A stretch of DNA of 40,805 nucleotides, from positions 1 through 40,805 of IMG/VR virus record IMGVR_UViG_3300046002_001048. The stretch is one strand, 5' to 3'. The DNA comes from a virus. The notes under the pieces were generated by a model, which had not been told where the DNA came from, did not search any database, and saw nothing but the letters and a program-made list of their open reading frames with translations. A program made the position numbers and the translations under genes. Below, piece by piece: positions 4 to 40,805 of the stretch (its first letter is position 1; each line of letters opens with the position of its first letter).

Positions 4-455
4 ACACTAGCGGTGCTTTTAGTTGGGATAGTTCTATCAACTTGACAGCTAATCGAATATTCCGACGCAGCTAATTAAATCGATCTCGGCCCGTCCCCCA
101 TAACATTTAGGAGATTACGTGGCTGAAAATTCAGCAGATATTGCCAAGCGTATTATCCTTGGCTGCGTTGCAGAGGGTATGACCATTGAAGCCGCTACGG
201 CTTCTGCTGGCAAATCCATCAAGACTTATGAGTACTACCGTCGCACAGATAAGATTTTTGCAGACAAGGTAGACCGAACCAGGCTCGGTCTTAAGGATAA
301 GCAGTTTGCAGGTGGCGATGTCCACGACATCGACTTCGTCGAATTCCGCAAACGCTTCCTACACTCAGAAACTTTTGCCCATCAGAAGAACATCGTAGAT
401 GTAATCGAAGGCCGCGAACCCGGCTGGCTACATCCGGCTATGAAGTTTGAAAAGG
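4..455. repeat. End repeat, left copy (overlaps terL start)
   Basis: These 452 bases recur at 40354-40805 with a constant offset of 40350. The first 115 bases (non-coding, up to the terL start) are identical in both copies. The coding part differs at 14 positions, 130, 166, 169, 205, 211, 229, 256, 280, 283, 289, 292, 298, 316 and 388, all third codon positions and all synonymous by my reading. The simplest reading is a circular or terminally redundant genome whose contig ends come from two co-occurring strains; a real second copy of the terL start is less likely. Confidence 0.9.
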
Positions 456-1978
456 GTCTGGCTAATAACCGTATCCTTGTCAACATTCCGCCCAACCACG
501 CCAAGTCCATCACAATCACTGTGGACTACGTAACCTGGATGGTTGCACGCAACCCCAACTTTAGAGTCCTGATTGTTTCCCAAACTCAGCGACTAGCAGC
601 AGACTTTCTCTACGCCATCAAGCAACGCCTTACACACCCAGTTTATGAAGAACTACAAAGTGCGTACGCTGCTGGCGTAGGGTTTAACTCTAAGACAGCC
701 TCGTGGCAGGCTACCCGCGTCACCTTCGGTGATGAGCTACGTGAGTCCAGCGAAAAGGACCCAAACATCGAAGCCGTCGGTATCGGCGGTCAGATCTACG
801 GTAAGCGTGCAGATATGATTATCGTAGATGATGCGGTGACTCTATCTAACGCCAATGACTTTGAGCGTCAGATCAAGTGGTTAACCCAGGACGTACGTTC
901 TCGTCTTAACCCAACAGGTAAACTTATTATTATTGGAACTCGTGTAGCAAGCGTTGACTTGTACCGTGAGCTTCGCCAAGAGGATAGATACCCAGGTGGC
1001 CTTGTCCCTTGGACCTATCTTGCAATGCCAGCACTTTTAGAAACTGATGAAGACCCTGACAAGTGGGTAACGCTTTGGCCTAAGTCAGATGCTCCATTTG
1101 ATGGACAAGAAGAAGCTGACAAAGATGAAGACGGTCTATATCCACGCTGGTCTGGACGTAACCTTTACAACGAACGCCAAGCGATGGATACATCCACCTG
1201 GGCGCTAGTCTATCAACAGCAAGATGTATCGGAGAACTCTGCCTTTGATCCAGTCTGTGTACGCGGCTCCATTGATGGAATGCGTAAGGCCGGTCCATTG
1301 GTAGCTGGTAACCCTGGTCACCCACGTGACTTAGGTGGCTACTCAATTATCTGTGGACTTGACCCTGCGATGATTGGTGATACTGCAGCTATTTGTTATG
1401 CAGTAGATCGCAATAGCAACAAGAGGTACATAGTAGATGCTATCAAGATTACTAGACCGTCTCCTGCCGATATTCGTGACCTTATATTTAATTGGACTTC
1501 CCTATACGGCCCGTCTGAGTGGATTGTTGAACGTAATGCGTTCCAGTCTTTCCTCACACAAGATGAAGGAATCAGACAACACTTGGCATCACGCGGAGTG
1601 TTACTGCGGGAACACCATACAGGCAACAACAAGTGGGATGCAGGCTTTGGTGTTGCGTCAATGTCAACTCTGTTCGGCACCAAGCAACACGATGGCAAGC
1701 ACCACAGAGACAACCTTATTCACTTACCTAGTGACCAAACTGAAAACGTTAAAGCGTTAATCGAACAGTTAATCACCTGGACTCCTACTACTAAGGGTAA
1801 GACAGACTTAGTAATGGCGCTCTGGTTCTGCGAGATCCGAGCACGTGAGATGCTCAACTACGGTCAGTACAACTCACACCATCTAAAGAATCCGTTTCTT
1901 ACATCAGCTGAGAAACGAAAGCGTGTAGTGGTCAACATTGACCAGTTACTAGCAGACCAGCACAAAACGTTTATCTAA
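119..1978 (+). CDS. terL: Terminase large subunit
   Basis: ATP-driven DNA packaging motor and nuclease that cuts concatemers and fills the prohead through the portal. Of 619 residues, the ATPase half has a Walker-A-like PPNHAKS at about 124-130, Walker B MIIVDD at 233-238 and a coupling motif LIIIGTR at about 269-275. The RNase-H-like nuclease half shows acidic residues in GLDPA (D415), WIVERN (E471) and KTDLVMALW (D562). Residues 1-55 look like a helix-turn-helix (TIEAATASAGKSIKTYEYY), unusual for TerL and possibly standing in for a small subunit, as no separate terS is seen. The start is GTG with TAGGAG about 6 bases upstream. Portal and capsid genes follow in the usual order. Confidence 0.95.
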   Translation: MAENSADIAKRIILGCVAEGMTIEAATASAGKSIKTYEYYRRTDKIFADKVDRTRLGLKDKQFAGGDVHDIDFVEFRKRFLHSETFAHQKNIVDVIEGREPGWLHPAMKFEKGLANNRILVNIPPNHAKSITITVDYVTWMVARNPNFRVLIVSQTQRLAADFLYAIKQRLTHPVYEELQSAYAAGVGFNSKTASWQATRVTFGDELRESSEKDPNIEAVGIGGQIYGKRADMIIVDDAVTLSNANDFERQIKWLTQDVRSRLNPTGKLIIIGTRVASVDLYRELRQEDRYPGGLVPWTYLAMPALLETDEDPDKWVTLWPKSDAPFDGQEEADKDEDGLYPRWSGRNLYNERQAMDTSTWALVYQQQDVSENSAFDPVCVRGSIDGMRKAGPLVAGNPGHPRDLGGYSIICGLDPAMIGDTAAICYAVDRNSNKRYIVDAIKITRPSPADIRDLIFNWTSLYGPSEWIVERNAFQSFLTQDEGIRQHLASRGVLLREHHTGNNKWDAGFGVASMSTLFGTKQHDGKHHRDNLIHLPSDQTENVKALIEQLITWTPTTKGKTDLVMALWFCEIRAREMLNYGQYNSHHLKNPFLTSAEKRKRVVVNIDQLLADQHKTFI

Positions 1979-28282: not shown

Positions 28283-28840
28283 ATGACAACTATCGCAGGT
28301 ATCCAAGGTATTGATTACGCTGTGCTAGTTGCAGACTCGCAGATCACAGAAGACAATCTCGTGACTCTTGCCATAACTACGCCCAAGATCGTAGAGGTAG
28401 GTAAGTTCCTCGTGGGTATCTCAGGTGATACCAGACCAGGTGACATCCTTTCCTACAACTGGAAGCCACCGACCTATAGAGGTGACGACCCAGTCCAGTT
28501 TATGGGAAAAAAAGTAATCCCCAGTATTAACACAGCTTTTAACGACAACAACTACGACTACAACAAGGTGGATAAAGATGACGGTTTTGATTATCTCATT
28601 GCTTTTAACGGTAATATCTTTCGGGTTGCTTGCGATCTCTCTTTTTTCCAAAGCGATGTCGGAACGTACGGCATTGGTAGTGGAGGTCAGTTTGCTCTTG
28701 GCTATCTTGCTTCAATCATTAAGCCTGATATGGAGTTAGCCTACGCAAAGAGACACGCCCGTAAAGCTGTTGAGATTGCTTCGGTACTTGACGCTAACAC
28801 TGGTAAGCCTTTACAGTTAGTAGTACAAGAAAGACTCTAG
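28283..28840 (+). CDS. HslV/proteasome-like peptidase (Ntn hydrolase)
   Basis: 185 residues beginning MTTIAGIQG. After Met removal Thr1 would be the nucleophile; D17 in VADSQIT falls where HslV has Asp17, and the Lys of TTPKIVEVG (mature K34) lines up with HslV Lys33. Also FLVGISGDTRPGDILSYNW and GIGSGGQFALGYLASI match HslV/proteasome strand and helix patterns. Such proteins form ring-shaped peptidase chambers and usually need an AAA+ unfoldase; no HslU, Mpa or ClpX-like gene is in the window, so a host unfoldase or an unfoldase-free role would be needed. First gene of the early/middle operon, next to a palindromic operator-like site. Confidence 0.85.
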   Translation: MTTIAGIQGIDYAVLVADSQITEDNLVTLAITTPKIVEVGKFLVGISGDTRPGDILSYNWKPPTYRGDDPVQFMGKKVIPSINTAFNDNNYDYNKVDKDDGFDYLIAFNGNIFRVACDLSFFQSDVGTYGIGSGGQFALGYLASIIKPDMELAYAKRHARKAVEIASVLDANTGKPLQLVVQERL

Positions 28841-28848
28841 GAGGAGTT

Positions 28849-28971
28849 ATGGAACTGAAGACAATACCAATGACAGATGAATACGCTGCTCATTACTTTT
28901 ATCAAATGGGTTGGATGGCTTGTCGTCTAGCATACAAACTAGAGGAAGAGAAAACCAATGTCAGTAACTGA
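28849..28971 (+). CDS. Hypothetical 40-residue protein
   Basis: ATG with GGAGGAG six bases upstream. Product of 40 residues with a helical, aromatic middle (DEYAAHYFYQMGWMACRLAY). It overlaps the nuclease gene start by 14 bases, so the two are probably coupled. No family is recognised. Confidence 0.72.
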   Translation: MELKTIPMTDEYAAHYFYQMGWMACRLAYKLEEEKTNVSN

Positions 28972-29905
28972 CCCGAAAGAACTGCTACTGACTGCTCTTA
29001 AGGCAGGTGATGCTAAGCGTTCACGATCTACTCAGGTACAGATCGGACCATCAGAGGTAGGTGGCTGTCGTCGTAAGGTGTGGTACAGACTTAACGACCA
29101 ACCAGAAACTAATGACAACGAATTAAAGTTAGCTGCGATTATGGGTACTGCTATCCACGCAGAAATTGAGAAGGCGCTAGCAGATAACAAAGATGTTTTG
29201 ATTGAAACAGAAGTTGAATACAACGGTATGAAAGCACACGTTGACTGCTTTGTACCTGGTACTGGTGATGTGATTGACTGGAAGACAAGCAAGGTCCGGA
29301 ACCTTTCTTACTTCCCATCATTGCAACAACGGTGGCAGGTACAGCTTTATGGCTACCTCCTAGCAAATAACGGCTATGCGGTCAACCGAGTGTCACTGGT
29401 AGCAATTGCCAGGGACGGGGACGAACGCGATGTCAAGGTTCACACCGAAGACTACGATGAGTCCATTGCACTAGAAGCACTCGGTTGGCTAGCGGCTGTT
29501 AAGGAAAGTAAAGAGGCACCAGCACCTGAGAAGGATGCAAGTTACTGTCAGCATTACTGCAAGTTCTATGACGCAAGTGGGCAGATGGGATGCGTTGGTC
29601 TAAAAAAAGAACTTACGTTAGTCAGTGATATAATCATTGATGACGTTGATGTTGACAAGAATGCACTGCTGTACTTACAGTTAGCAGCACAGATTAAAGA
29701 TCTTGAGAAACAACAAGACTCACTCAAGGCCAGCTTTGAAGGACTGCTCGGTGTTACACCTAGCGGTATCGAAGTAAGTTGGACAACTGTTAAGGGACGA
29801 GAGTCAGTTGACAGTAGCGAGGTAGAAAAACTACTTGGGTTTGTACCCAAGAAGGTGGGCGCTGAAAGCCAGCGACTATCAATTAAGCAAAGTGGAGGCA
29901 AGTAA
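28958..29905 (+). CDS. Cas4/RecB-like PD-(D/E)XK nuclease
   Basis: 315 residues. Nuclease core: IHAEIE (H67), HVDCF (D96), DVIDWKTSK (D107, K109) and QVQLYGYLL. Four Cys at 37, 197, 201 and 212 (GGCRRKVWY near the start; YCQHYCKF and GC near 197-212) match the [4Fe-4S] cluster pattern of Cas4 and AddB exonucleases. The C-terminal 90 residues add a coiled-coil region (LKDLEKQQDSLKASF type). It likely resects DNA ends for recombination or replication, acting with the resolvase and helicase-like genes downstream. No Cas1/Cas2 or repeats are present, so it is not a CRISPR gene. Confidence 0.88.
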   Translation: MSVTDPKELLLTALKAGDAKRSRSTQVQIGPSEVGGCRRKVWYRLNDQPETNDNELKLAAIMGTAIHAEIEKALADNKDVLIETEVEYNGMKAHVDCFVPGTGDVIDWKTSKVRNLSYFPSLQQRWQVQLYGYLLANNGYAVNRVSLVAIARDGDERDVKVHTEDYDESIALEALGWLAAVKESKEAPAPEKDASYCQHYCKFYDASGQMGCVGLKKELTLVSDIIIDDVDVDKNALLYLQLAAQIKDLEKQQDSLKASFEGLLGVTPSGIEVSWTTVKGRESVDSSEVEKLLGFVPKKVGAESQRLSIKQSGGK

Positions 29906-30287: not shown

Positions 30288-30551
30288 ATGCTACGGCGAC
30301 CAGAAGAATTTGAGTCGCCAAGTTGTGCAACAGTAGGTGGAGACTTCTGGTTCCCTGAGAAGGATGCCAGTAAGTATGAGAATCAGTTTGCTAAAGCAAT
30401 TTGTGCTTCTTGCATCCACAAAATAGATTGTGGTGAGTGGGGTATCCACAAAGAAAACTTCGGTATCTGGGGCGGTCTAACTGATATGGACCGCAGACTT
30501 ATCCGTCGTCAAAGAGGTATCAGAGTTAACGAGGAGGAAGACGTTGCTTAA
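30288..30551 (+). CDS. whiB: WhiB-family transcriptional regulator
   Basis: 87 residues. The four Fe-S ligands are C13, C39, C42 and C48 (AICASCIHKIDC), followed by the signature GIWGG at 59-63 and a basic tail (RRLIRRQRGIR) for DNA contact. WhiB proteins bind region 4 of the host vegetative sigma factor and redirect transcription; mycobacteriophage WhiB (TM4 WhiBTM4) can inhibit host WhiB2 and block superinfection. It identifies the host as actinobacterial. Starts directly after the previous stop and overlaps the helicase-like gene by 8 bases. Confidence 0.95.
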   Translation: MLRRPEEFESPSCATVGGDFWFPEKDASKYENQFAKAICASCIHKIDCGEWGIHKENFGIWGGLTDMDRRLIRRQRGIRVNEEEDVA

Positions 30552-31395
30552 TCTATCCCGTGCGTGGGGCGGTGTGCTTACCAAAGCAACACCACTGCCT
30601 GACGTATGGGTTGGCTTGGCAGCCAAACAGATTAAGTTCAGGCGTGGGCAGGTATGTATGGTTGCTGCCGCTCCTAATGCTGGTAAGTCAATGTTCGCAT
30701 TGATCTATGCAATCAAAGCAAAGGTGCCTACACTGTTCTTCTCAGCTGATACTGACACTACTACTGTGATGATGCGAGCAGCTTCGCATACATCAGGCCA
30801 CTCACAGATAACTGTTGAGGCTAACTTGGCTAGTGATAGCCACTACTACGACCATCACTTCCAGAAGATTGACCACATCAAGTGGGTCTTTGATTCGTCA
30901 CCAACAATAGATGATCTTGAACTGGAGATCAGGGCTTACGTAGAACTCTACGGCGAGGCACCTGAACTCATCATCATAGATAACCTAATGAACGTGGCAG
31001 CAGAGACAGACAATGAATGGTCAGGACTGCGTGCAATTATGATGGAGTTGCACGATATGGCACGCAAGACTGAAGCCTGTGTAATGGTATTGCACCACGT
31101 CTCTGAGCAATCAGAGTACGGGTCAACGACCAAGCCACCTGCACGTAGGTCTATTCACGGAAAGGTCAGTCAGTTACCTGCACTGATACTTACACTGGGC
31201 TACGATCCCAACCAAGCAACACTATCTGTTGCAGCTGTTAAGAATCGTTTTGGTCCACACACAGCAGATGCCTCCGATTATGCACAACTGCTAGTAAACT
31301 ATGCAGCGTGTCAGATCGGTGACCAAGATGAATATGGCTGGATGTATCGCAAGGATGCAATGGCTGGATACCAGGGAGGGTACAACGTTGGCTAA
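30544..31395 (+). CDS. RecA/DnaB-type ATPase (putative replicative helicase)
   Basis: 283 residues, TTG start with GAGGAGG seven bases upstream. Walker A APNAGKS at 43-49, Walker B ELIIIDN at 141-147, and LHHVSE at 183-188, as in DnaB C-domain and RadA-like ATPases. It lacks the DnaB N-terminal domain and is short, so it may be a helicase core or a recombinase/loader of this superfamily. Together with the primase genes at 32314-33226 it would form the phage replication fork machinery. Confidence 0.85.
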   Translation: MLNLSRAWGGVLTKATPLPDVWVGLAAKQIKFRRGQVCMVAAAPNAGKSMFALIYAIKAKVPTLFFSADTDTTTVMMRAASHTSGHSQITVEANLASDSHYYDHHFQKIDHIKWVFDSSPTIDDLELEIRAYVELYGEAPELIIIDNLMNVAAETDNEWSGLRAIMMELHDMARKTEACVMVLHHVSEQSEYGSTTKPPARRSIHGKVSQLPALILTLGYDPNQATLSVAAVKNRFGPHTADASDYAQLLVNYAACQIGDQDEYGWMYRKDAMAGYQGGYNVG

Positions 31396-31552
31396 TACAG
31401 AGATGCAGTATGTAAAGAACCGCATTCAGAAACTGGAGAAGGACTTTGCAGCCTTTGCATCGCTACTTATCCAAGCAGGTATCGTTGAGGTCAAAGAAGA
31501 AGATGGCGTGCAAGTCTATGCAGTCAACAAGGTTGCACTAGATGGCAAATAA
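31388..31552 (+). CDS. Small coiled-coil protein
   Basis: 54 residues from the TTG at 31388, seven bases after GGGAGGG; the longer reading from 31301 lies in another frame of the helicase-like gene and has no ribosome site. Sequence EMQYVKNRIQKLEKDFAAFA is a short coiled coil, followed by VKEEDGVQVYAVNKV. Probably an oligomerising partner of the flanking genes; the function is unknown. Confidence 0.7.
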   Translation: MANTEMQYVKNRIQKLEKDFAAFASLLIQAGIVEVKEEDGVQVYAVNKVALDGK

Positions 31553-31892
31553 GAACGGACGCAAGGGTTCTCAGTTTGAGACAGATGTTATGAAATGGCT
31601 ACGCGGTGCGGGAGTTATGGCAGAACGTTTGACAAAAGCTGGGGCAAAGGATGAGGGAGATATGGTTGTTATCATATCTGGAGAAACCTACATCCTTGAA
31701 TTAAAGAACAGAAAGCAATTAAACTTTCCAGAGTTCTGGAGAGAAGCGCAAGTTGAGGCGCTTAACTACGCAAAGGCTAGAGGTCTTGGGGAAGTGCCTC
31801 TTTCCTACGTTGTAGTTAAGCGTCGCAACGCTAGCATCGAAGATGCTTGGGTAATACAAAACTTAAATCAATGGTTAAAGGAGAAAAAATAA
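31542..31892 (+). CDS. Holliday-junction resolvase-like nuclease
   Basis: 116 residues. PD-(D/E)XK residues in order: E13 (KGSQFETDVMKWL), D40 (KDEGDMVVI), E54 and K56 (YILELKNRK). This is the Hjc/VRR-NUC-like pattern. It probably resolves branched DNA during recombination-dependent replication or before packaging. It overlaps both neighbours by one to eleven bases. Confidence 0.8.
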   Translation: MANKNGRKGSQFETDVMKWLRGAGVMAERLTKAGAKDEGDMVVIISGETYILELKNRKQLNFPEFWREAQVEALNYAKARGLGEVPLSYVVVKRRNASIEDAWVIQNLNQWLKEKK

Positions 31893-32216: not shown

Positions 32217-32380
32217 TTTGTCAGAACTGTCTTAAGGGTGGAGCAGAGAACAGAGCTAGTCACTTCAAGCGTGCCTCCCATTGGCACGGTAAGTGCGACT
32301 TCAAGGGGTGCGTATGTCAACACAAGACTGGTCCAGGACACACAAGGGTAACCGAGTCCAAGCTAACAGCATCCCAATAG
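32213..32380 (+). CDS. Small zinc-finger protein
   Basis: 55 residues with C3, C6, C28, C33, C35 and H37 (ICQNCLKGG; KCDFKGCVCQHKTGPGHT). Likely binds one or two zinc ions. The ATG overlaps the preceding stop. The C-terminus runs 67 bases into the primase zinc-domain gene in another frame. Small Cys-rich proteins of this form occur in other actinophages, from memory; the role is unknown. Confidence 0.72.
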   Translation: MICQNCLKGGAENRASHFKRASHWHGKCDFKGCVCQHKTGPGHTRVTESKLTASQ

Positions 32381-32682
32381 AACCAATCGTAAGTTTCTTC
32401 GGCGGTGAAACAAGAGGTGGCACCGGTGAGATAAGAGTCAAGTGCTTGATGCACAATGACTCACATAGATCTGCCTCAATGAACGTAGATACCAACCTTT
32501 ACTACTGTCAAACCTGTGGTAAGGGTGGCAATGCAGTCAACATAGTCTGCATCCTAGAGAACTTGGAGTTTATAGATGGCCTCAAACGTGCAGTCGAAAT
32601 TGCTGCTGGAAGCGGCGCAGCGATACGCACAGGCAATAAGTCCAGAGGTGCTAGACGTGCTAGCCGCACGTGGGATATCTGA
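32314..32682 (+). CDS. Primase CHC2 zinc-domain protein
   Basis: 122 residues from the ATG at 32314 (AAGGGG upstream). DnaG-type zinc ribbon: C44, H47, C65, C68 in CLMHNDSHRSASMN and YYCQTCGKGGN. This domain finds the priming site on single-stranded DNA. The catalytic TOPRIM part is encoded by the next gene, which starts 107 bases before this one ends and is in another frame, so the primase is split. Confidence 0.85.
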   Translation: MSTQDWSRTHKGNRVQANSIPIEPIVSFFGGETRGGTGEIRVKCLMHNDSHRSASMNVDTNLYYCQTCGKGGNAVNIVCILENLEFIDGLKRAVEIAAGSGAAIRTGNKSRGARRASRTWDI

Positions 32683-33226
32683 ATTAGTTGCAGCTAAGTT
32701 TCAACTAGGTACAGTTACCGAGCCACACAATGGACACGAGATGCACGAGGGTTGGCTGTCTATTCCATACATCACTGCCAGTGGTAGTTGCGTGGGCTTT
32801 AAGTTCAGGCGCATAGATGATGGCAAGCCTAAGTACGGCTCACCTACAGGGCAGAAGGCACACCTGTATAACGTATGCGACATCACCATTGACTCACCAC
32901 ACATCGTTGTGTGCGAGGGTGAACTAGATGCTGTCATTACTAGCGGTGTGCTTGGCATCCCAGCTGTCGGTGTGCCAGGTGTAGCTGCTTGGAAGCCACA
33001 CTTTCCAAAACTATTTAATGGTTACGAAACTATCTATGTTGTCGGAGACAACGACATCAAAGAGGATGGGTCCAACCCTGGTGCTGAGTTTGCTAAGCGC
33101 GTGGCTAATGAGGTAATGAACTCAGTTATTGTTACACTACCACCAGGTATGGACATCAATGACTACTACCTAGCACACGGGGCAGATGCCACACGTGCTT
33201 TGCTAGTAGGTGAGCAGATTGGATAA
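32576..33226 (+). CDS. Primase TOPRIM-domain protein
   Basis: 216 residues. ATG with GGAG seven bases upstream, within the preceding gene. The start (LLEAAQRYAQAISPEVLDVL) matches the linker helix of phage primases. TOPRIM motifs are IVVCEGELDAV (about residue 110-120; acidic E) and VVGDNDIKEDG (DxD). The nearby KFRRIDDGKPKYGSP and PGMDINDYY also fit DnaG/gp4-type primases. It supplies RNA primers together with the CHC2 partner. Frame relation to the CHC2 gene is +1. Confidence 0.85.
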   Translation: MASNVQSKLLLEAAQRYAQAISPEVLDVLAARGISELVAAKFQLGTVTEPHNGHEMHEGWLSIPYITASGSCVGFKFRRIDDGKPKYGSPTGQKAHLYNVCDITIDSPHIVVCEGELDAVITSGVLGIPAVGVPGVAAWKPHFPKLFNGYETIYVVGDNDIKEDGSNPGAEFAKRVANEVMNSVIVTLPPGMDINDYYLAHGADATRALLVGEQIG

Positions 33227-38414: not shown

Positions 38415-38575
38415 TCTTCGCCCTCTCTCTCGTGTAAGTAACCGCCCATAGTGGTGATTAGGTTGGTGCGAATTACTAACGTGCCGTACATATCCTCGTA
38501 AACCTCCGCGCCTTGCATATTCTCCTCCACCCATTCTTTAAGGTCTTTGAGCGTGTCCACCTCTTGAAGTTCCAT
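38411..38575 (-). CDS. Hypothetical 54-residue protein
   Basis: Helical N-terminal part (VDTLKDLKEWVEENMQGAEV), then YGTLVIRTNLITTMGGYLHE. Possibly a small alpha/beta protein. Start overlaps the preceding stop. No family is recognised. Confidence 0.7.
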   Translation of the reverse strand: MELQEVDTLKDLKEWVEENMQGAEVYEDMYGTLVIRTNLITTMGGYLHEREGEE

Positions 38576-38943
38576 TATTCCTCTTCCTTATACTTTCCGT
38601 CCTTGAATCCTTGAATCTCATCCTCTAACCAACTCTCGGCAATCTCGCGGAAGTTCACGCGGTAGAGTGAGCCGACATCTTTCAGCATTGAGAGCAGACC
38701 AGCCGAAAGAGTCTCTTGCCCCCAATACTCAGGCGAGAAGATGTCATCCGCCCAATCCGCGAGGGCTTTCTCTGCCTCGTAAAGCCCATCTTGCCAGCCG
38801 TCCTCTTTCTCGGTGTCAATGTTCTCTAGGAATGCCTGACCGATTAGTTCGCTCGCGGTTTCTTGTAGCCCTTGGTCGTTGTCAATGTGGAGCGCTAGCC
38901 CCCACGTTTCGCGGTTTGTCCAGCCATTGTATTTATCGCACAT
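38575..38943 (-). CDS. DUF7249-like protein (YNGWTNRETW motif)
   Basis: 122 residues, the largest of this part of the operon, ATG with AAAGGG upstream. The start YNGWTNRETWGLALHIDNDQ is the hallmark of a family widespread in phages and mobile elements (I recall it as DUF7249). The rest is acidic and helical (WQDGLYEAEKALADWADDIF). Function unknown; an anti-restriction or host-takeover role has not been shown as far as I know. A 95-base gap with hairpins and a DnaA box separates it from the next gene upstream. Confidence 0.8.
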   Translation of the reverse strand: MCDKYNGWTNRETWGLALHIDNDQGLQETASELIGQAFLENIDTEKEDGWQDGLYEAEKALADWADDIFSPEYWGQETLSAGLLSMLKDVGSLYRVNFREIAESWLEDEIQGFKDGKYKEEE

Positions 38944-38977: not shown

Positions 38978-39038
38978 CATCCGCTTCACGGATGGACACC
39001 CTCGCGGGTGTTTCGGTCTGTTCAAAAGCTGTGGATAA
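38978..39038. promoter_or_regulatory. Tandem hairpins plus DnaA box in operon gap
   Basis: Two adjacent hairpins, CATCCG/CGGATG at 38978-38994 and ACACCC/GGGTGT at 38996-39011, then a perfect inverted DnaA box TGTGGATAA at 39030-39038 (TTATCCACA on the minus strand). This is the only sizeable gap in the leftward operon. It may be a secondary replication signal or a regulatory leader of the DUF7249-like gene. Confidence 0.55.
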
Positions 39039-39244: not shown

Positions 39245-39408
39245 TACTTCACCCCGCAAGCGGTAAGGAATCGGGCGCGGTCAAAGCGTGGGTTGTCTAA
39301 TGAAAGGAAATCAGCGAAATCCTTTGAAAGTGTCTCGCGCTGTGAGTCGTCTAAATAGAATGCCTGCTCCATTAGTTGAGAGATAAGCACATAGTCTTTG
39401 CGTGTCAT
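39244..39408 (-). CDS. Conserved small phage protein (NPRFDRARF motif)
   Basis: 54 residues. TRKDYVLISQLMEQAFYLDD, then LSKDFADFLSLDNPRFDRAR and FLTACGVK. The NPRFDRxRFxxAC ending is a pattern I recall from many phage and plasmid small proteins of unknown function. Overlaps both neighbours by one base. Confidence 0.78.
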   Translation of the reverse strand: MTRKDYVLISQLMEQAFYLDDSQRETLSKDFADFLSLDNPRFDRARFLTACGVK

Positions 39409-39596
39409 TAGTTTCTCGCCTTCTTTACTGTGAAAGTCAGTGGGACTAGTTGAAGGTCAAGGGCTGGCAAAACAGCGGTTTGAATCAAATCCTTGATTTC
39501 AATTTCCAAAACTTCTGCATCACTAAGGTTTCTATTGCTGTTTGATTGATAGTGGAACTCAGTATCTACTTTGAAAGAAACAGTGTATTTAGCCAT
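39408..39596 (-). CDS. First gene of leftward operon, hypothetical
   Basis: 62 residues. Beta-strand pattern KYTVSFKVDTEFHYQSNS at the start, then an acidic helix (AEVLEIEIKDLIQTAVLPAL) and VPLTFTVKKARN. ATG with AAAGGA upstream. It lies right behind the presumed promoter region, so it is probably expressed first. The family is not recognised. Confidence 0.75.
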   Translation of the reverse strand: MAKYTVSFKVDTEFHYQSNSNRNLSDAEVLEIEIKDLIQTAVLPALDLQLVPLTFTVKKARN

Positions 39597-39650
39597 TTAT
39601 TTGCATCCTTTGCGGTTAATTCAAAACAAACGATTTGCTTTGATGTGCTG

Positions 39651-39680
39651 AGTCTAATGCCTACGGGACTATACCGACAA
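39651..39680 (-). promoter_or_regulatory. Candidate promoter of leftward operon
   Basis: Read leftward, TTGTCG (39680-39675) and TAGACT (39656-39651) are separated by 18 bases, a fair sigma-70-type match about 55 bases before the first gene start. Sequence match only; other -35/-10 pairs are possible. Confidence 0.4.
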
Positions 39681-39809
39681 CATTTGAGGGCATTTATTGC
39701 CCTTTATTTGGTAAAGATTTGATAACAGAATCCTGAGTCTTACCTGAGAATGACAGGGATAACCGAGTCGATAAGTCGACATTTCAAAGGGTGTCGGGCT
39801 GTTGAGTTA

Positions 39810-39823
39810 GTTGAAAGTTCAAC
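39810..39823. promoter_or_regulatory. Operator-like palindrome
   Basis: Perfect inverted repeat GTTGAA-AG-TTCAAC with further GTTG copies on both sides (39801 and about 39825). It is about 130 bases from the candidate leftward promoter. Possible regulator site. Confidence 0.4.
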
Positions 39824-39837
39824 CAGTTGGAGGTGCT

Positions 39838-39867
39838 AAGTTACTGGGTGTGGGGCTGTAGTAACTT
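39838..39867. other. Inverted repeat with 14-base loop
   Basis: AAGTTACT and AGTAACTT form a perfect 8-bp stem around a G-rich loop. Part of the repeat-rich stretch left of the DnaA boxes; it could be an origin structure or an operator pair. Confidence 0.4.
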
Positions 39868-39989
39868 GGGAGATTGCTGTGAATGGTGACGGCTTTGCCA
39901 ACTGTAAAGGGCTTATTGAATCCTGAGAGGTTACTGAATCAGGGAAAGGGGATTGTTAAATAGTGCCGAGGGGTTAGACAGCCCAAAAG

Positions 39990-40030
39990 TTATCCACAAC
40001 CTTATCCACAGGTCTGACCAGTTATCCACA
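39990..40030 (+). other. DnaA-box cluster, putative replication origin
   Basis: Three exact copies of the consensus DnaA box TTATCCACA, all on the plus strand, at 39990-39998, 40002-40010 and 40022-40030. A fourth, inverted, exact copy is at 39030-39038. Such clustering is not expected by chance in 40 kb. It lies in the gene-free region, flanked by AT-rich DNA (40080-40230) that could unwind. The phage has primase and helicase-like genes but no polymerase, fitting recruitment of host DnaA and replisome. Confidence 0.78.
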
Positions 40031-40175
40031 GGGCAGGGGGTGGGGGTCTGCTCCTCCAGCACGGCACGCCTACCCGGGGTTGTTGAATTTAGTAGGGGGA
40101 TGTACTGTGTACCGTACCAAAATATTTCGACTAAAGTGAGATCCAATTATAGCTCTGACCTGCGGTTTTACTGTA

Positions 40176-40191
40176 TGTGACTAACGTCACA
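40176..40191. promoter_or_regulatory. CRP/GlxR-like palindrome
   Basis: TGTGACTAACGTCACA matches TGTGA-N6-TCACA, the site of CRP-family regulators including the actinobacterial GlxR. About 290 bases upstream of the terminase gene. A single site; it might tie phage transcription to host carbon status, or be bound by an unrelated factor. Confidence 0.45.
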
Positions 40192-40337
40192 TTGTGAAAA
40201 CGAGAAATCGATAAAATTTCCTGCCTTATATACAGTAGGGGCGGTAATTGAGATAGCCCCGTCCAGCTCGCTACGGTTACCCTTCGCGAGTCCCCTAGGA
40301 CGAGCGCTGACTTACCCCTCACTTCGCTGTGGCTCGT

Positions 40338-40354
40338 TCGGGCGCTAAGCCCGA
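40338..40354. other. Hairpin at left edge of end repeat
   Basis: TCGGGC-GCTAA-GCCCGA, a perfect 6-bp stem, ends exactly where the repeat shared with bases 4-455 begins. It could mark a packaging or replication signal before terL, or the coincidence could arise from assembly. Confidence 0.4.
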
Positions 40355-40805
40355 CACTAGCGGTGCTTTTAGTTGGGATAGTTCTATCAACTTGACAGCT
40401 AATCGAATATTCCGACGCAGCTAATTAAATCGATCTCGGCCCGTCCCCCATAACATTTAGGAGATTACGTGGCTGAAAACTCAGCAGATATTGCCAAGCG
40501 TATTATCCTTGGCTGTGTAGCAGAGGGTATGACCATTGAAGCCGCTACGGCTTCAGCTGGTAAATCCATCAAGACTTACGAGTACTACCGTCGCACAGAT
40601 AAGATCTTTGCAGACAAGGTAGACCGAACTAGACTCGGCCTGAAGGACAAGCAGTTTGCAGGTGGAGATGTCCACGACATCGACTTCGTCGAATTCCGCA
40701 AACGCTTCCTACACTCAGAAACTTTTGCCCATCAGAAAAACATCGTAGATGTAATCGAAGGCCGCGAACCCGGCTGGCTACATCCGGCTATGAAGTTTGA
40801 AAAGG
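40354..40805. repeat. End repeat, right copy
   Basis: Second copy of bases 4-455 at a constant offset of 40350. The non-coding 115 bases are identical; the coding part has 14 synonymous differences. The unit genome is therefore about 40350 bp. Confidence 0.9.
40469..40805 (+). CDS. terL: Terminase large subunit, start only (cut by window end)
   Basis: The first 112 codons of the terminase gene again, same GTG start and TAGGAG site as at 119. The protein is identical to residues 1-112 of the full copy although 14 codons differ in the third base. It runs off the end of the window, so it is most likely the same gene reached by going round the circle in a different strain, not a second gene. Confidence 0.85.
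   Translation, partial: MAENSADIAKRIILGCVAEGMTIEAATASAGKSIKTYEYYRRTDKIFADKVDRTRLGLKDKQFAGGDVHDIDFVEFRKRFLHSETFAHQKNIVDVIEGREPGWLHPAMKFEK

Follow-up and report, generated by a model that had tools for sequence, protein, structure and literature searches.

The Locus and Its Phage

The window, which is the whole 40,805-nucleotide stretch of viral DNA analysed here (IMG/VR record IMGVR_UViG_3300046002_001048), contains a long intergenic hub from which small leftward genes and terL diverge. The hub holds three exact direct copies of the DnaA box TTATCCACA together with several dyads and other short motifs, and the replication genes lie in a separate rightward group (Table 1). Bases 5-455 of the window repeat bases 40355-40805, differing at 14 of 451 positions. 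The record thus represents a near-complete circle of about 40.35 kb that is imperfectly closed, and the terminal mismatches probably come from two co-assembled strains.

Table 1. Features of the intergenic hub, terL and the replication genes, in window coordinates.
Feature	Position	Strand	Remark
Cas4-like/RecB-type exonuclease	28958..29905	+	
DnaB-like helicase, RecA domain only	30544..31395	+	PHROGs/Pfam
RusA-like Holliday junction resolvase	31542..31892	+	
CHC2 zinc-finger half of split primase	32293..32682	+	
Toprim half of split primase	32576..33226	+	
Lone inverted DnaA box, exact TTATCCACA	39030..39038	-	In gap upstream of leftward gene 38575-38943
First leftward gene at far side of hub	39408..39596	-	No function assigned
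Divergent intergenic hub, leftward small genes / terL	39597..40468		Long gene-free gap
GTCGATAAGTCGAC dyad	39767..39780		Common to E7/F5 and relatives
TTGAAAGTTCAA dyad	39811..39822		Common to E7/F5 and relatives
DnaA box 1, exact TTATCCACA	39990..39998	+	Site kept in relatives
DnaA box 2, exact TTATCCACA	40002..40010	+	Follows box 1 at 12 bp, a spacing also seen in relatives and ahead of dnaA in host-like genomes
DnaA box 3, exact TTATCCACA	40022..40030	+	Retained in L009 and L007
Right-hand conserved slot block, GTGTACC..AAATATTT..CTAAAGTG	40104..40140		Kept regardless of slot content
CTCTGACCTGCGGTT motif	40153..40167	+	Either orientation among relatives
CRP/GlxR-like dyad TGTGA-N6-TCACA	40176..40191		Single occurrence in window
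terL (TerL)	119..1978	+	Gene downstream of slot; start equivalent to 40469

A TerL search of IMG/VR returned hundreds of close relatives. The nearest named phages by TerL are OX376640 and OX376641, at 47-48% identity, whose records are named LanE43-AprE7 and LanE43-AprF5 (E7 and F5 below); they are cultured phages of Ca. Planktophila (PMC10202952). The Streptomyces Beephvirinae come next, at 42-43%. The phage is a member of the freshwater actinophage family that includes E7/F5, sharing with them and with the G2 phages a homologous terL, a genome of about 39-41 kb and a WhiB gene. The N-terminus of TerL (119-700) resembles a helix-turn-helix domain; a small terminase subunit with a gene of its own was not recognised. 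An HslV/proteasome-like peptidase gene is found in the early region at 28283-28840, and the window has no Rfam RNA or tRNA.

The Box Array and the Surrounding Motifs

The earlier note had reported three exact boxes at 39990-40030, an inverted copy at 39030-39038, and a location in the only long gene-free region of the DNA. All four copies are there, the window has no others, and the array does lie inside that gap. Dinucleotide shuffles give an expectation of 0.30 exact copies, and none of 100 shuffles contained four or more. Three boxes within 41 bp would occur by chance with a probability of the order of 1e-8 (a Poisson value, estimated by hand from the per-site rate). That the boxes are chance matches without function therefore has practically no probability, and for the three-box cluster this explanation is already refuted, both by the shuffle control and because about 20 relatives carry the array in the same slot. 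The inverted box may be a chance match, as no counterpart of it was found in the relatives.

The claim that AT-rich DNA adjoins the boxes holds only weakly, since positions 40035-40100 are 36% AT and positions 40100-40245 are 61% AT, in a window of about 54%. Both segments fall outside the least stable stretches of the window.

The remainder of the hub is rich in potential operator sites. Dyads of the types GTCGAT-NN-GTCGAC and TTGAA-NN-TTCAA are also present in E7/F5, and the half-sites of the CRP/GlxR-like dyad are retained in 52 of 64 relatives, with a spacer that varies. LexA-like GAAC-N4-GTTC sites occur in L057, L059, L061, L076 and L082, and also in L105 and L185; the longer form CGAAC-N4-GTTCG is seen near the DnaA slot, in pairs 36 bp apart in L057, L059, L061 and L082. 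These dyads are putatively attributed to CRP and LexA, by resemblance only. The CTCTGACCTGCGGTT motif is inverted in relatives such as L037, L038 and L043. MtrA-like pairs of the form GGTAAC-N5-GGTAAC, found in six relatives, could not be matched to any published consensus. A nucleotide search with the intergenic region gave no match among named phages.

Resemblance to Host DnaA Boxes

As proxies for the host, 26 small genomes were taken from the class of a Cryobacterium genome, most of them with 42-48% GC around dnaA. These low-GC Actinomycetes of 1.2-1.5 Mb appear to fit the Nanopelagicales by size and GC, and the host match is one by proxy. The boxes flanking dnaA in these genomes are TTATCCACA. 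In several of them the arrangement TTATCCACA-NNN-TTATCCACA, with a CTGTGG half-box after it, lies about 20 bp ahead of the dnaA ATG, and the exact 12-bp pair is found in 5 of 21 genomes, always at this place.

In the phages, the variants alongside the pair carry A or G at position 3 and C or G at position 5, and include TTGTCCACA, TTATGCACA and inverted copies. Published DnaA affinities place most of the box variants seen in the phages among those that DnaA binds (PMC5835720). The boxes are thus exact or tolerated members of the TTWTNCACA type, clustered beyond chance, and on this resemblance host DnaA very probably binds the array.

Slot Content among Relatives

The array occupies a slot bounded on its right by the AAATATTT..CTAAAGTG block. 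Relatives with a DnaA array in the slot are referred to as class I, and those with the dyad TAGACA-N13-TGTCTA as class II. Class I arrays are found at the same position in about 20 of the 64 relatives, usually as TTATCCACA-NNN-TTATCCACA with 12-bp spacing, plus extra direct or inverted copies such as TGTGGACAA and TGTGCATAA. Other relatives, including E7, are class II, and the remainder match neither pattern; the anchor left five rows unscored, of which L024 and L026 are class II by eye. In E7 (L321) the dyad lies about 430 bp upstream of terL, and it is also seen in L003, L036, L066, L078 and others, with constant spacing and, in some relatives, a second copy further upstream. As a host operator the TAGACA dyad was rejected, with one match in 21 host-like genomes, which is not above the reversed control.

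Slot content changes over short distances. L003 and L004, whose TerL is 97-98% identical to that of the window, are class II, and on the TerL tree class I needs at least seven changes even on well-supported branches, with class I members more clustered than under shuffled labels. The position of the boxes also varies. In one subclade, with L064, L153, L195 and L167, the pair covers the terL ribosome-binding site, 18-32 bp ahead of the gene start, and L081 has one box there beside a degenerate copy. The boxes are therefore conserved in some sublineages of related phages and absent from others. No near-consensus box cluster exists anywhere in the complete box-free relatives, in E7, in F5 or in three Beephvirinae, and the replication module that the box-free relatives retain is of the same kind. 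Within the 8-kb left flanks, no gene family tracks the DnaA or the TAGACA class. Because the content of the slot varies while the flanking genes are constant, and because box-free relatives keep the module, the array is not a fixed need of the replication module.

A packaging site (cos/pac), in which terminase would bind the repeats, is suggested by direct repeats upstream of terL and by the many relatives whose contigs terminate in this region. It is very unlikely: the repeats do not vary freely but keep to the host DnaA box and to variants that DnaA tolerates, and they are missing in close terL relatives. Fixed genome ends near the array were sought and rejected, as the contig ends are scattered across hundreds of bases with no single point.

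Distant relatives carry a more elaborate form. In L105 a module of three boxes and CAACGCGGTCGGGCGTGTCGCC is inverted with respect to terL and flanked by LexA-like sites; the composite of DnaA boxes and ACAACGCGGTCGGGCGTGTCGCC occupies L105:13093-13148. Among 59 IMG/VR matches to the 16-mer ACAACGCGGTCGGGCG, 19 have DnaA boxes at most 75 bp away. Composites of boxes and ACAACGCGGTCGGGCGTGTCGCC are seen in both orientations in several phage groups, followed in several cases by a LexA-like site. The GC motif of the ACAACGCGGTCGGGCG type is absent from the window itself, and no match to it was found in the literature. Its form AACGCGGTCGGGCG was discarded as a host element, having only scattered matches and none in the small low-GC genomes tested.

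It is conceivable, if rather doubtful, that actinophages possess a hot-swappable slot for cis-acting cassettes, in which host-sensing modules are exchanged among close relatives. The modules would be the DnaA array, LexA-like boxes, the TAGACA-N13-TGTCTA dyad, and the composite of DnaA boxes, ACAACGCGGTCGGGCG and a LexA-like site, in either orientation. If true, such a slot would retune replication or late-gene timing to different hosts with the proteins unchanged.

Similar Arrays in Other Phages

The pair pattern is present in at least 120 IMG/VR stretches; of 125 pairs, 35% fall within ORFs of at least 80 aa, as against 76% for random positions. Named phages with matches to the array in non-coding DNA include 130-kb Streptomyces phages (32 bp exactly in Faust) and T5-like phages. 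Examples in large non-coding gaps are NC_031933 9704-9729 (T5-like) and NC_070783 123596-123627 (a 130-kb Streptomyces phage). The T5 literature searched states no role for its boxes, and no paper on DnaA boxes in actinophages was found. Occurrence of the array in unrelated phages suggests that host DnaA commonly serves as an input to phage control.

One function that could be served in all of these phages is that of a decoy. Multiplied phage genomes would titrate host DnaA, in the manner of datA, and halt initiation on the host chromosome, with the position of the boxes of minor importance. High affinity of the boxes, their enrichment outside ORFs in unrelated phages including T5-like ones, and their variable position and orientation all agree with this. 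We consider it improbable, since there are just two to four boxes, and a sponge needs neither a precise slot, nor 12-bp phasing, nor alternation with a different dyad.

Replication Genes and the Question of an Origin

The earlier note listed CHC2 and TOPRIM primase genes, a RecA/DnaB-type ATPase, a Cas4-like nuclease and a resolvase, and every one of them was confirmed. It found no DNA polymerase, and within the sensitivity of PHROGs and Pfam neither a polymerase nor an initiator was recognised in nearly all genes of the window. The sole 'DNA polymerase' PHROG match is a low-complexity artefact in a collagen-like tail protein. The annotations of the Streptomyces Beephvirinae list a RecB-type exonuclease, a DnaB-like helicase, a RusA or other Holliday junction resolvase and a split primase (FlowerPower has fewer of these), with no DNA polymerase annotated. 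Because a polymerase is neither recognised in the window nor annotated in the Beephvirinae, the whole family, with or without boxes, likely uses the host polymerase.

This gene content led the earlier note to propose an origin dependent on host DnaA. DnaA would bind the array, open nearby DNA and load the phage DnaB-like helicase and split primase, and host polymerase III would carry out synthesis; box-free relatives would use another cassette in the same slot, the TAGACA-N13-TGTCTA dyad. Part of the proposal stands. The boxes are phased, of high affinity and similar to those of the host, they recur at one position in a sizeable minority of relatives, and they sit in the longest gap of a genome with no recognisable polymerase or initiator. 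The substitution of another dyad at the same place, and the composite module with its GC-rich motif in both orientations, also agree with it. On the other side, the same kind of replication module is present with no box cluster in complete relatives, E7/F5 and the Beephvirinae, the array moves (in one subclade onto the terL ribosome-binding site), inverts or is replaced, and no gene in the 8-kb left flank tracks the TAGACA class. Box arrays also occur in T5-like and 130-kb Streptomyces phages, groups known to have a DNA polymerase gene of their own, and so do not imply a polymerase-free phage whose replication is started by DnaA.

Sequence signatures of an origin were looked for as well. The minimum of the detrended cumulative GC skew is scattered over the genome in ten relatives and lies near the slot in two, so that the minimum expected at the boxes is not consistently there; this is weak evidence, as the skew follows gene orientation and its cumulative maximum follows the orientation switch. 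No strong unwinding element was found beside the boxes: the 61% AT segment ranks about 1,100th of 40,294 in instability and is separated from them by a GC-rich spacer. Neither the skew nor the unwinding-element result refutes an origin. The variable presence of the array argues against an essential origin, and not against a cassette that replaces another. The array is not established as 'the origin', and the reading as an origin is possible and a serious contender, at a probability well under even.

A Possible DnaA-Responsive Control Element

The reading slightly preferred here, with an origin as its close rival, is that the array is an exchangeable control element responsive to host DnaA; we hold it tentatively, at a little under even confidence. 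The three boxes would form a DnaA-binding array in an exchangeable slot of the divergent control region upstream of terL. Host DnaA would bind the phased pair in the way it binds at the dnaA gene, and would affect the flanking phage promoters. Phage gene expression could then track the replication state of the host or the phage copy number, with DnaA being titrated as phage copies accumulate.

The subclade in which the pair lies on the terL ribosome-binding site, as in the dnaA leader, argues for a control element, as do the operator-like neighbours, namely the CRP-like dyad and the LexA-like sites. Against this, the distances of about 440 bp to terL and about 390 bp to the first leftward gene are long for a simple operator, and a search of both sides of the window array gave no sigma-70-like promoter above chance. 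The composite invertible module of distant relatives would also fit an origin cassette.

The replication and regulation biology of phages of the most abundant freshwater actinobacteria is almost unknown. A DnaA array that close relatives exchange, relocate and invert would couple gene control or replication of the phage to the cell cycle of its host, and it gives a short list of testable sites.

Comparison with Known Systems

The closest systems are the Ca. Nanopelagicales phages E7/F5 and the freshwater G2 actinophages (PMC10202952), which share with the window homologous terL and DnaB-like proteins, an equal genome size, WhiB and sigma factor genes, and a hub with GTCGA and TTGAA dyads. Unlike the window, E7/F5 have no DnaA-box cluster, and E7 carries the TAGACA-N13-TGTCTA dyad instead. 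The terminal-repeat arrays of T5-like phages (Demerecviridae) and the non-coding arrays of Streptomyces Stanwilliamsviridae match over 26-33 bp and also lie in a large non-coding gap, but these phages are unrelated to the window phage and much larger.

Bacterial oriC (dnaA-dnaN) and DnaA-dependent plasmid origins likewise have clustered high-affinity DnaA boxes in non-coding DNA. They differ in that the phage array has no demonstrated unwinding element and that its close relatives are box-free. The oriC pairs of the host-proxy genomes are spaced at 10-11 bp, in contrast to 12 bp in the phage. The 12-bp spacing is that of the pair in the dnaA leader or promoter of actinobacteria, associated with dnaA autoregulation, where TTATCCACA-NNN-TTATCCACA is followed by GNCTGTGG, and some of the phage relatives also place the pair over a ribosome-binding site. 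The window array differs from the leader pair in its distance from terL and its third direct box, and in being in a phage.

The ori/pO-pR control region of phage lambda also has boxes for host DnaA close to promoters. Lambda itself encodes the initiator O and the loader P, and neither is recognisable in the window phage. Host DnaA binds the lambda region and stimulates transcriptional activation of the origin (PMC3985674), which shows that the roles of origin and regulatory element can coincide.
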